Positions 6,075 through 9,312 of a stretch of DNA of 10,135 nt are shown here, one piece after another. The notes beneath the pieces are model-generated. The model made no database searches, was not told the DNA's origin, and saw only the letters and a program-made list of their open reading frames with translations. The stretch's first letter is position 1. Each line of letters starts with the position of its first letter. The translations under genes were made by a program, and so were the position numbers. Origin of the DNA: Deltaproteobacteria bacterium (GTDB lineage: Bacteria > Desulfobacterota_E > Deferrimicrobia > Deferrimicrobiales > Deferrimicrobiaceae); NCBI GenBank assembly GCA_023489025.1, contig JAMDCN010000017.1, forward strand, positions 1 to 10,135. Reading direction: 5' to 3'.

Positions 6075-6611
6075 ATGAGCGACGATTTGAAATCGCAAAT
6101 TGCGATATCAAGACCGCCCCTTCGGGCAGAGGAAATTTCCCAGCGAATTCATACTCTTCGGGGCCACCGCGTCATGCTGGATGCGGACCTTGCGGAACTG
6201 TACGGTGTCCCAACAAAGGCCTTCAATCAGGCAGTCCAGCGGAATGCCAAACGATTCCCGGAAGACTTCAAGTTCCAACTCTCGCGCGATGAGGCCAATT
6301 CTTTAAGGTCACAAATTGTGACCTTAAAGACCGGACGCGGACAACATCGAAAATACCTCCCTTACGCCTTCACCGAGCAAGGCGTAGCAATGCTATCAGG
6401 TGTCCTTAGCAGTCCTCGCGCGGTTCAAGTCAATATTGCGATTATGCGGGCGTTTGTCCGGATGCGTCGGATGCTCGAATCCAACGAGGAACTGGCCCGA
6501 AAGGTGGAAGCTCTTGAAAAGAAGTATGACTCCCGATTCCGCATGGTCTTCGACGCGATCCGTGCCCTGATGGAGCCACCCAAGACACCGCGGCGGCGGA
6601 TCGGATTCTGA
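6075..6611 (+). CDS. ORF6N domain protein, copy 1
   Basis: A 178-aa protein with the ORF6N domain at about residues 17-110: LRGHRVMLDADLAELYGV, then FNQAVQRNAKRFPEDFKFQL, LRSQIVTLK, and YLPYAFTEQGVAMLSGVL. The C-terminal part is a likely coiled coil (ESNEELARKVEALEKKYD) and a basic tail (TPRRRIGF). ORF6N is related to KilA-N and is linked to DNA binding in phage and bacterial proteins. The start is taken because the second copy (about 80% identical by eye) begins at the same Met with MSDD. No Shine-Dalgarno is visible in either copy. Codons 76-85 lie in a 31-base palindrome (6300-6330). The gene faces the NTPase gene across 57 bases. Unlike copy 2, no palindrome lies upstream. Confidence 0.88.
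   Translation: MSDDLKSQIAISRPPLRAEEISQRIHTLRGHRVMLDADLAELYGVPTKAFNQAVQRNAKRFPEDFKFQLSRDEANSLRSQIVTLKTGRGQHRKYLPYAFTEQGVAMLSGVLSSPRAVQVNIAIMRAFVRMRRMLESNEELARKVEALEKKYDSRFRMVFDAIRALMEPPKTPRRRIGF
6300..6330. repeat. Perfect palindrome inside ORF6N copy 1
   Basis: The arms TCTTTAAGGTCACAA and TTGTGACCTTAAAGA (15 bases each) surround a single A at 6315. It encodes S76-LRSQIVTL-K85. Both leucines are TTA and one arginine is AGG, codons found nowhere else in this gene. The core GGTCACAANTTGTGACC recurs at 8720-8736 and 9005-9021. Confidence 0.9.
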
Positions 6612-6668
6612 TCCTTTCACGTAAGGACCCTGTTCGACATCCGGACGCGATGGGATCGTGTTGTGACT

Positions 6669-7220
6669 TCAAGTTGCTGGACGGGAGGTAAGTTTCGCGA
6701 CAAGCTGTTCCGGAAGTTCGTCCCTGTTCTCCCGAGTGACCAGGATCGGCTCTACATCCTTCCGGCGCCGGATGTTATCGATGAAATCGCCGCCTCCGCG
6801 CAGCGGGATCGTTGCCAGGATCGGGTGATCCGTCTCGAATGCCTGCTCGACCCTCCGTACGAAGTCACCCGAGCAGCATTCCATCTTCCCGATCTCGTCG
6901 ATGAGAAGCACCCTGCCCGCCTCCGCCTCCATCGAAGGGAGGGCGATCTCTTCGAACGCTTTTACGTTGACCCGGTACGAGCCTACCCGCGGTCCGGGTC
7001 TCGGATCCTTGCGTGCCAGTTCGCCCCGCTTCCCTTCGAGGGATATCACCTGGAAGCCGATGCGCTGCCCCGTGTCGTCGCGGACTTCTTCCGTGTAAAA
7101 ACCGGAGGCGCCGCCGCCGAGCATATCCGCGACCTTCCGAACGACGGTCGTCTTCCCGCATCCCGGGGGACCGGTCAGCAGGATCCTCTTACCGGCGGAA
7201 GGTTTTGCATCAGGCGACAT
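6669..7220 (-). CDS. Nucleoside-triphosphatase, THEP1 family
   Basis: A 183-aa P-loop NTPase. The Walker A motif GPPGCGKTT is near the N-terminus (about 18-26 counting from the chosen Met), and the Walker B motif VLLIDEIGKME is near residue 108. Between them are GFYTEEVRDDTGQRIGFQVI and RVGSYRVNVKAFE, diagnostic of the THEP1/NTPase_1 family known from thermophiles and many bacteria. Members hydrolyse NTPs; the cellular role is unclear. The start is uncertain: ATG at 7220 gives MSPDAK, with GGGGAGG 14 bases upstream. A GTG at 7235 adds five residues but overlaps that ribosome site, so I prefer the ATG. It is convergent with ORF6N copy 1. The same pairing was present in the repeated block, where this gene has been deleted in two places. 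Confidence 0.88.
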   Translation of the reverse strand: MSPDAKPSAGKRILLTGPPGCGKTTVVRKVADMLGGGASGFYTEEVRDDTGQRIGFQVISLEGKRGELARKDPRPGPRVGSYRVNVKAFEEIALPSMEAEAGRVLLIDEIGKMECCSGDFVRRVEQAFETDHPILATIPLRGGGDFIDNIRRRKDVEPILVTRENRDELPEQLVAKLTSRPAT

Positions 7221-7245
7221 CCCGTGTAGAACCACCTCCCCTTTC

Positions 7246-7359
7246 GGCGAGTTGTACCTTGGATGTTCGGGAACCGCAAGCTGTTCCCATCGACGGGCAA
7301 AGGGAGCCGGAATAAGGAACCAAGAGGGAGGCTCCGCTCATCGTATTATTCAAGCATCT
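7246..7359. repeat. Conserved leader segment upstream of the NTPase gene, copy 1
   Basis: About 113 bases upstream of the NTPase gene match 9476-9588 at roughly 90% by eye, although the gene body between this leader and the 3' fragment has been lost in copy 2. Frames in it are open in both copies (minus strand SLLVPxSGxLCPSMGT), but no ribosome site supports translation. A stem GGGAAC-8-GTTCCC is present here but loses one pair in copy 2, so there is no clear covariation. Confidence 0.55.
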
Positions 7360-7435
7360 AACGGTGCGCGCGCAGGTCGAAAAGCGAAAGGCTTCATGAG
7401 CACCCCGGCAAAGGCCGGGAACGAAAGGAGACCCC

Positions 7436-8411: not shown

Positions 8412-8555
8412 GATCTTCGCCTCCTTTTCACGGCAATCTGTTTTTCTTTAGATGAGCGGTCCAACGAAAGGTTGGCAGGCTTCTGGATGCACCTCCGATT
8501 CCCTGCATGTCGAACCAGAAAACGCTGACATGAAATAAGTCCATGGCATTGCCCG

Positions 8556-8561
8556 TATAAT
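8556..8561 (+). promoter_or_regulatory. -10-like box TATAAT
   Basis: A perfect TATAAT lies about 25 bases ahead of the start codon at 8587. No good -35 hexamer is found at 16-18 bases upstream, so promoter strength is doubtful. If active it would transcribe the cupin remnant, the palindrome and ORF6N copy 2 together. Confidence 0.35.
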
Positions 8562-8586
8562 CGGAACTATCGGATCGGGAGAGTCA

Positions 8587-8754
8587 ATGGGACCTGACGA
8601 GATCATCGCTGCATATCGGCTGGAGCGGCACCCGGACGGAGGCGGTGAGCTGCAAGTGGCAAGAACTTCTGGGGATTACACCCTTGCGGACGGTGACCTT
8701 GGAGGAATCGCCGGGATCCGGTCACAATTTGTGACCGGTGCGCAGGGCATGTAA
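8587..8754 (+). pseudogene. Internally deleted DUF985-type cupin, or 55-codon leader ORF
   Basis: A 55-codon frame with a fair ribosome site (GGGAG six bases ahead). The start reads MGPDEIIAAYRLERHPDGGG, close to the N-terminus of DUF985 cupins as I remember it (xxAxEIIxxLGLxPHPEGGxFRETYRS). It then jumps to VARTSGDYTL, like the last strands of that family (GDYALVGCTVAPGF). The roughly 100 residues of the cupin barrel between them are missing. The end runs through the palindrome at 8718-8738, read as IRSQFVT, and stops 18 bases before the ORF6N start. Function as a cupin is impossible; use as a translated leader of ORF6N copy 2 is conceivable. The family call rests on about 30 residues. Confidence 0.45.
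8718..8738. promoter_or_regulatory. Palindrome upstream of ORF6N copy 2, candidate operator
   Basis: CCGGTCACAA-T-TTGTGACCGG is a perfect palindrome with 10-base arms, ending 34 bases before the ORF6N start. Its core GGTCACAATTTGTGACC is identical to the one inside ORF6N copy 2 and differs from that in copy 1 only at the central base. Placement downstream of the putative -10 box would make it a roadblock-type operator. It could also fold as an RNA hairpin. Confidence 0.6.
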
Positions 8755-8772
8755 CTTGAATCCCGATTCTAC

Positions 8773-9312
8773 ATGAGCGACGACACGAAATCGGAAACGG
8801 CGATATCCACACAGCTCCTCGGGGCAGAGGAGATCTCCCGGCGGATCCTCACCGTTCGGGGGCATCGGGTCATGCTGGACGCTGACCTTGCGGAACTATA
8901 CGGGGTAACGACGAAAGTCTTCAATCAGGCTGTCAAGCGGAACGCGGAACGATTCCCGGAAGATTTCATGTTTCTGCTCTCGCGGGATGAAGCCCATTCT
9001 TTAAGGTCACAATTTGTGACCTTAAAGAAACCCGGACGCGGCAAGCATCGGAAATATCTACCTTTTGCCTTCACGGAGCAGGGCGTCGCAATGCTATCCG
9101 GGATTCTTCACAGTCCGCGCGCAGTTCAGGTCAATATTGCCATCATGCGTGCGTTTGTCCGGATGCGGCGGCTGCTTGTATCCCACGAGGAACTGGCACA
9201 CAAACTGAACGCCCTCGAAAAGAAATACGATGAACAATTCCGCGTGGTCTTCGACGCGATCCGTGCTCTGATGGAACCGCCAAAGAGGCCACGTCGACGG
9301 ATCGGATTCTGA
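8773..9312 (+). CDS. ORF6N domain protein, copy 2
   Basis: A 179-aa protein, colinear with copy 1 except for one extra residue after LRSQFVTLK (KPGRG instead of TGRG). The ORF6N domain is complete (HRVMLDADLAELYG, RFPEDFMFLLSRDEA, YLPFAFTEQGVAMLSG), followed by the coiled coil (ELAHKLNALEKKYDEQF) and the basic PRRRIGF tail. Many codon differences from copy 1 are silent and the conserved domain is intact, so both copies have been under protein-level selection. There is no visible ribosome site; the start is fixed by alignment with copy 1. The upstream palindrome suggests self-regulation by the ORF6N protein, as inference. The downstream partner NTPase is lost. Confidence 0.88.
   Translation: MSDDTKSETAISTQLLGAEEISRRILTVRGHRVMLDADLAELYGVTTKVFNQAVKRNAERFPEDFMFLLSRDEAHSLRSQFVTLKKPGRGKHRKYLPFAFTEQGVAMLSGILHSPRAVQVNIAIMRAFVRMRRLLVSHEELAHKLNALEKKYDEQFRVVFDAIRALMEPPKRPRRRIGF
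8997..9029. repeat. Perfect palindrome inside ORF6N copy 2
   Basis: The arms TTCTTTAAGGTCACAA and TTGTGACCTTAAAGAA (16 bases each) surround a single T at 9013. The 30 bases from TCT to AAG are identical to copy 1 except the central base, which changes codon 81 from Ile to Phe. The two TTA codons are the only ones in the gene. Confidence 0.9.

Follow-up and report, generated by a model that had tools for sequence, protein, structure and literature searches.

Introduction

The purR gene of Escherichia coli carries an autoregulatory operator within its own coding region. The ORF6N, KilA-N, Bro-N, RhuM and YhcG families are, to our knowledge, poorly characterised. Here we describe palindromes that lie inside two ORF6N genes of a Deltaproteobacteria bacterium (Deferrimicrobiaceae; assembly GCA_023489025.1, contig JAMDCN010000017.1, positions 1 to 10,135 of the forward strand; this whole stretch of 10,135 nucleotides is called the window here) and that are very probably read by the proteins these genes encode. 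The likeness to purR-type operators would lie in a dimeric helix-turn-helix (HTH) protein and a palindrome inside its own gene, downstream of the promoter. The difference is that purR is a single gene, whereas the ORF6N site is found in 200 of the 207 genes examined, varies with the recognition helix and is written in two reading frames. No other regulon is evident for ORF6N, and its repression is a guess.

Phage antirepressors whose N-terminal domain is ORF6N or KilA-N have this domain in common with the window proteins, which are single-domain by Pfam. ORF172 of phage FNU1 combines ORF6N with KilAC and is named a putative antirepressor (PMC6591296); the passages on ORF172 in that paper report no DNA site, and "palindrom" in the available portions refers to CRISPR. 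Rickettsia palindromic elements (RPEs) are described in passages of another paper as selfish sequences of about 100–150 nt that insert in genes, RNAs and spacers (PMC4316617). Like the ORF6N sites, they are palindromes within open reading frames (ORFs); unlike them, the ORF6N sites are about 25–33 nt long, occupy one place in one domain and are tied to a DNA reader. Nematomorph mitochondrial genes also contain perfect inverted repeats in coding sequence, of up to 284 bp, and the accessible text names no DNA-binding reader for these (PMC6649704). In the open-licence PubMed Central (PMC) literature we found nothing that ties palindromes to ORF6N, RhuM, Bro-N, KilA-N or YhcG, though such a report may be in print elsewhere. 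A family-wide site in the reader's own coding sequence that varies with the reader, with palindromes recurring in further DNA-binding families, matches no kind known to us or described in the literature searched. The system would work like an autoregulatory operator; we do not class it as one, and the regulation is a prediction.

Palindromes in the ORF6N genes of the window

The two genes lie on the forward strand. Gene 1 (6075–6611) encodes 178 residues and gene 2 (8773–9312) 179 residues; the proteins are 81% identical and score 117 and 119 bits, respectively, against PF10543 (ORF6N; curated cut-off 27.8). The HTH of gene 1 comprises residues 36–56 (6180–6242), with helices at 36–43 and 47–56 in the AlphaFold2 model. 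Covariation with the palindrome, described below, points to K48 (6216–6218), A49 (6219–6221) and Q52 (6228–6230) as its specificity residues. By alignment to gene 1, the HTH of gene 2 spans 8878–8940 and carries K48, V49 and Q52. In the model, residues 48, 49, 52 and 53 all sit on helix 47–56, and the peptide encoded by the palindrome forms a helix end and the least certain loop. MerR-type winged-helix DNA-binding domains were matched weakly, and none of them at E ≤ 0.001 in Foldseek.

Gene 1 contains a palindrome at 6300–6330 (codons 76–86; 15-bp arms, one central base) and gene 2 one at 8997–9029 (16-bp arms). A third, at 8718–8738 (10-bp arms), lies 35–55 nt before the ATG of gene 2. The two intragenic ones are the predicted binding sites of the genes' own products. 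The sequence GGTCACAAWTTGTGACC occurs exactly at 6307–6323, 8720–8736 and 9005–9021; when up to three mismatches were allowed, the window still held three matches, against 0.03 expected. These three palindromes had been reported in a first-pass annotation made from the sequence alone, and they are real. Its further observations also stood: the two intragenic sites (6300–6330 against 8998–9028) differ at the centre alone, and leucine is written TTA in each gene at codons 77 and 84 only, both within the site. At degenerate residues shared by the two genes, about 43% of synonymous codons differ outside the site. Inside it, 1/9 differ by scripted alignment and none by direct codon reading; K85 is AAG in both genes, and the scripted mismatch probably comes from pairing with the next lysine.

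A fourth palindrome, absent from that annotation, covers the first codons of gene 1 (6087–6111, centre 6099). It is of the same kind as the other three and slightly imperfect (11/12 pairs). Gene 2 has what looks like its decayed counterpart. An Rfam search of the window gave no match.

Conservation across the ORF6N family

ORF6N genes are spread over many phyla. The loci compared are the best 80 of at least 588 relatives, and the sample favours close homologues because the best-scoring relatives were taken; further genes came from Bacteroidota genomes, viral contigs, plasmids and one phage record. From 154 ORF matches we obtained 114 distinct genes with the anchor motif FTEQG (FTExG), and from a second set of 66 we obtained 54 (10 lacked the anchor). 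A palindrome was called when at least 9 of 11 arm pairs matched around three free central bases, 20–130 nt before the anchor. When genes are averaged by distance from FTEQG, the profile has no clean peak at the site, since that distance varies; the maximum of each gene was used instead.

A palindrome follows the HTH codons in 113/114 genes of the first set, 50/54 of the second and 37/39 of a third, described below. It is perfect over all 11 pairs in 82/114 genes. Equally good palindromes elsewhere in the same genes were found in 8/114 and 7/54. The exceptions are L055 in the first set (8/11 pairs) and, in the second, L145 and L168 (8/11 each), L155 (6/11) and L186 (4/11, in a gene truncated by a contig end). 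The palindromes are far beyond chance and not peculiar to the window. Six genes (L023, L047, L058, L100, L129, L133) carry two in-frame palindromes 27–81 nt apart.

The site is not one fixed sequence. The two-sided core NTCRCANNNTGYGAN is unmatched in 26/114 genes, all of which but L055 keep at least 9/11 pairs; these genes mostly have the half-sites TTCCA, TGCCA or TTTCA, or others. A single fixed operator is ruled out by these genes, which are off the core yet still symmetric. The encoded peptide shifts with the half-site, from LRSQxVT to LRFQxGT, LRCQxGT or LRFQxET. Among 166 sites, 153 lie in one reading frame and 13 in another, where the homologous place reads, for example, VVANCDHL. Thus the palindrome is retained while the peptide varies; we saw no case of the opposite pattern, in which the peptide stays the same while its codons vary at will and the palindrome is missing. 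The conservation of LRSQxVT seems to follow from the DNA that spells it, and a strong nucleotide-level constraint inside coding sequence here shapes the protein.

We also scanned 30 ORF6N-carrying genomes for the core. There are 78 sites, with 1–8 per genome in 29 of the genomes, and a reversed control pattern gave none. The context is known for 75 sites: 51 fall within the domain, 7 in other parts of an ORF6N ORF, 10 no more than 1 kb from an ORF6N gene and 7 in other places. With 68/75 inside or close to ORF6N genes, the sites give no evidence of a further regulon. In a set of 99 Bacteroidota genomes, 37 sites fall in the 28 that have an ORF6N match (in one of these the match is below the cut-off) and 11 in the 71 that have none; the reversed control gave 18 in all 99, about the rate of the genomes without a match. 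With the queries used, 5 of 50,697 phage records were matched, and 23 loci came from viral contigs. Phages as the main habitat of ORF6N were set aside on these few matches.

Probable recognition code and blind prediction

Covariation between site and protein was calculated for 150 genes, taken from 168 by keeping those with 9/11 pairs or better and a domain of sufficient length. Mutual information with base −4 is highest for residues 52, 49 and 53 (z 50, 26 and 19), and the next residue reaches 5.8; this comparison covers well-filled columns, with the palindrome-coded loop set aside. An A at −4 goes with Q52 (85/88), a G with E52 (31/32) and with R49 (31/32), and a C with R52 or K52 (29/29). 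The main site obeys this −4 rule in 145/150 genes. At −7, G goes with K48 (95/101), and where the base is A the residue is R48 in 30/49 and K48 in 0/49; the rule that K48 specifies G and R48 specifies A holds for 125/130 genes with K or R. Base −8 tends to follow residues 36, 48, 37 and 47. Taken together, residues 48, 49 and 52 of the recognition helix pair with bases −7, −5 and −4. Three of the window sites agree: the palindromes of gene 1 (−7 G, −4 A) and gene 2 fit K48 and Q52 of their own proteins, and the upstream site at 8718–8738 (−7 G, −4 A) fits both.

Eleven records contain at least two genes. In five of these (L043, L047, L050, L056, L061) base and residue switch jointly, and in five the genes agree in both. 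Parsimony places 46 changes of the base on a tree from which these columns had been left out. Supported branches provide 4, 6 and 8 independent pairs for the three −4 contrasts, none of which goes the wrong way.

The rules were then fixed and applied to genes not used before. From 54 matches we removed 10 duplicates of training genes, 3 without an HTH anchor and 2 without FTExG, leaving 39: 37 from Pseudomonadota (the phylum of G002, a Lysobacteraceae metagenome-assembled genome) and 2 from the Bacteroidota genome scan. A first run with FTEQG-like anchors covered 14 genes and was right at −4 in 13, after which the anchor was widened to FTExG. In the full set, the 37 palindromes found include 26 that are perfect. 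Base −4 was predicted correctly in 35/37 and base −7 in 34/34, with 3 genes giving no prediction. The two misses are L391 (K52 with TCACA) and L411 (Q52 with TCGCA). Since rules taken from the recognition helix predict the bases of the site, we consider it very probable that each protein recognises the palindrome in the gene that encodes it. The first-pass annotation had suggested such recognition, and both the covariation and the blind prediction lend it strong in silico support.

Proposed mechanism

In the mechanism that we favour, with a probability of roughly 0.6, the palindrome would be the cognate site of the gene's own protein, which would bind as a dimer and repress by acting as a roadblock. 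Residues 48, 49 and 52 would read bases −7, −5 and −4 of each half-site, with two subunits on the two halves. The long C-terminal helix in the model and the two-fold symmetry of the site suggest the dimer. From a site some 230 nt inside its own gene, the protein would stop or slow RNA polymerase and would thus limit its own synthesis and that of an incoming copy of the same specificity. Reader and target are about 60–110 nt apart in one gene and are therefore inherited together wherever the gene lands. Repression as the use of the bound site is our best guess, at about even odds. We guess at a roadblock as the simplest use of an intragenic site, one that would act on every gene copy in the cell, and roadblock autoregulation is a plausible prediction. 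ORF6N proteins would gain a predicted target, a readable code (48, 49, 52 against −7, −5, −4) and a predicted self-directed role.

Several observations weigh against this mechanism or against parts of it. The −4 rule is broken in 5/150 genes and in 2/37 of the fresh ones, and the two genes of L162 combine a G with different residues, E52 and L52. The independent pairs at −4 are few (4 to 8), and the permutation z-scores ignore relatedness; for −7 against R48, five independent pairs decide nothing. Symmetry extends to the outer arms (−9 to −13), but these covary little with HTH residues, so reading by the HTH alone does not explain them. A sigma-70-like promoter was sought at 8500–8830 and not found. 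Sites 5′ of the genes are also less consistent. Near the 5′ end of ORF6N genes there are 28 extra palindromes in four 50-nt bins from −450 to −250, where about 3 are expected from the far flanks, and some of them belong to an adjoining ORF6N gene or form hairpins of a different type. Fourteen of 31 5′ sites agree with the −4 rule of their own gene; when a CA...TG core is required, 13/29 fit, and sites of this type occur in 20/150 genes. The palindrome at the start of gene 1 does not fit the rule of that gene either (−4 = G). Hence the suggestion that the protein also recognises its upstream region stands for gene 2, whose site at 8720 fits its K48 and Q52, and does not hold in general.

Alternative explanations

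The alternative that survives best, though we think it unlikely, keeps binding to the own gene and gives it another purpose: the moving, copying or guarding of the gene (homing, recombination or exclusion of rivals) rather than repression. It draws on the 68/75 core sites in or near ORF6N genes, on the occurrence of these genes across many phyla and on palindromes of mixed specificity that pile up beside an ORF6N gene (L099, L153) or without one (L110). Moreover, YhcG genes carry palindromes, and the YhcG family is grouped with PD-(D/E)XK enzymes in the passages available from one paper (PMC4316617). Against it, Pfam at E ≤ 0.001 finds ORF6N alone in the window proteins, with no nuclease or recombinase domain; a homing endonuclease gene would be marked by a nuclease domain. 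The earlier proposal that the site is a target for exchange between ORF6N genes or for a recombinase gained no direct support.

Reading of the site by a host protein other than ORF6N would account for selection on the DNA. It would not make the site track residues 48, 49 and 52 of ORF6N, and we regard it as improbable.

Slightly less probable still is an mRNA hairpin that governs how the transcript is translated or degraded. Being transcribed, the site could fold, and a loop could be formed by its three free central bases. Such a hairpin should accept G.U pairs, whereas a symmetric site in double-stranded DNA should treat G.T and A.C alike. At position 4 of 148 distinct frame-0 sites, 144 pairs are Watson–Crick (58.8 expected from the base composition of the columns) and neither G.T nor A.C occurs. 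Positions 5, 8 and 10 follow suit, the pairs numbering 139, 138 and 147 where 90.5, 80.3 and 87.2 would be expected. Summed over positions 3–13, there are 21 G.T pairs (about 152 expected) and 28 A.C pairs (about 160 expected), so G.U is not tolerated above A.C. The 13 frame-1 sites lean the other way at position 9, with T.G in 4 and A.C in none; these sites are few. Because G.T and A.C are equally avoided in the main frame, the constraint looks to be at the DNA level rather than on an mRNA hairpin, and a hairpin would not predict covariation with the HTH. The selection on DNA that the first-pass annotation had read from two genes is therefore strongly supported in silico, by the family-wide symmetry and by this test.

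Least probable of all is a selfish palindromic repeat, akin to RPEs or repetitive extragenic palindromic (REP) sequences, that chances to lie in ORF6N genes: the genes with two palindromes and the intergenic copies speak for it, whereas copy number (1–8 per genome in 29/30 genomes, not the many copies unrelated to the host gene that mark such repeats), the near-control rate in genomes without ORF6N, the nearly fixed position in the gene and a sequence that tracks the recognition helix disfavour it.

Related gene families

Bro-N, RhuM, YhcG_C, KilA-N, Fic and TetR_N genes from one phylum (L195–L294 for Bro-N, RhuM, YhcG and KilA-N) were intended as controls, with synonymous-codon shuffles as the baseline; their ORFs are the longest at each match, without re-scoring by hidden Markov model. 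Perfect 11-bp palindromes were found in 11/29 ORF6N genes (0.03 expected) and also in Bro-N (7/25; 0.17 expected), RhuM (15/26; 0.45), YhcG (14/30; 0.15) and KilA-N (3/14; 0.05). Fic gave 1/30 (0.25 expected) and TetR 0/30 (0.08). With at least 10/11 pairs, TetR gave 6/30 against 2.1 expected and Fic 3/30 against 2.9.

In RhuM, 22/25 palindromes map to a single alignment column, which comes after the HTH. Base ±4 covaries with a recognition-helix column (z 10.2), and a column near the loop is higher (z 11.8). Half-sites mostly go with the helix: (S/N)EH with CGGAA, NIS(L/M)H or NIT.H with AAG, PAVSKH or PAISKH with TTCCA, and TINYH with CGAAA; L225 and L413 are exceptions. The pattern recurs in Pseudomonadota, where 11/45 RhuM loci without an HTH anchor were left out. 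In KilA-N, 8/11 palindromes share one alignment column. Those of YhcG fall on no single column, with 2 genes near the median and two groups of 7. The covariation signals in Bro-N look like subfamily effects, and for Bro-N and YhcG we claim the recurrence of intragenic palindromes alone.

We tentatively propose, as a possibility that we consider rather doubtful, that ORF6N, RhuM, KilA-N, Bro-N and YhcG share one design. Each would be a solitary, horizontally moving gene that encodes a reader and then, in its coding sequence, the target of that reader. The product would locate all copies of the gene that encodes it, whether resident or incoming; copies that match would silence each other or shut each other out, and the outer arms would perhaps be read by the palindrome-coded loop. 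Such mutual silencing or exclusion would favour repeated joint switching of reader and site. Specificity groups would then resemble phage immunity groups, and a mobile gene would carry and update its own recognition site, independent of its landing place.

Further observations

Palindromes occur in groups of three or four with mixed specificity at about 1300–1420 of L153 and 1500–1600 of L099, both 5′ of an ORF6N gene; each locus has four 5′ sites, of differing specificities. A group of this kind also stands at 1504–1645 of L110, a 3-kb locus in which no ORF6N gene was recognised. Palindromes at 1508 of L116 and 1508 of L118 also lack a recognised ORF6N gene and lie upstream of ORFs, which we take to resemble a DUF1016 nuclease and a Bro-N protein. 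On a Treponema plasmid (L191) and a Bacteroides plasmid (L193), ORF6N is flanked by a class I DNA methyltransferase/winged HTH gene and a restriction subunit S gene, with Fic and RhuM genes in the neighbourhood.

Both ORF6N proteins of the window, like their homologues, end in an R-x-I-G-F-like motif (6591–6608 and 9292–9309), of which G177 is at least 90% conserved. The flanks of the two genes are duplicated (6767–6892 and 9355–9480, 91%; 7234–7361 and 9464–9591, 87%), and the stretches 3′ of gene 2 look like fragments of the NTPase_1 gene region, the NTPase_1 gene itself being at 6669–7235. Further upstream, at 2460–4242, a gene with HTH and Peptidase_M78 (IrrE-like) domains overlaps an ORF without a Pfam match, and the pair looks like a two-gene regulatory or toxin–antitoxin-like unit.

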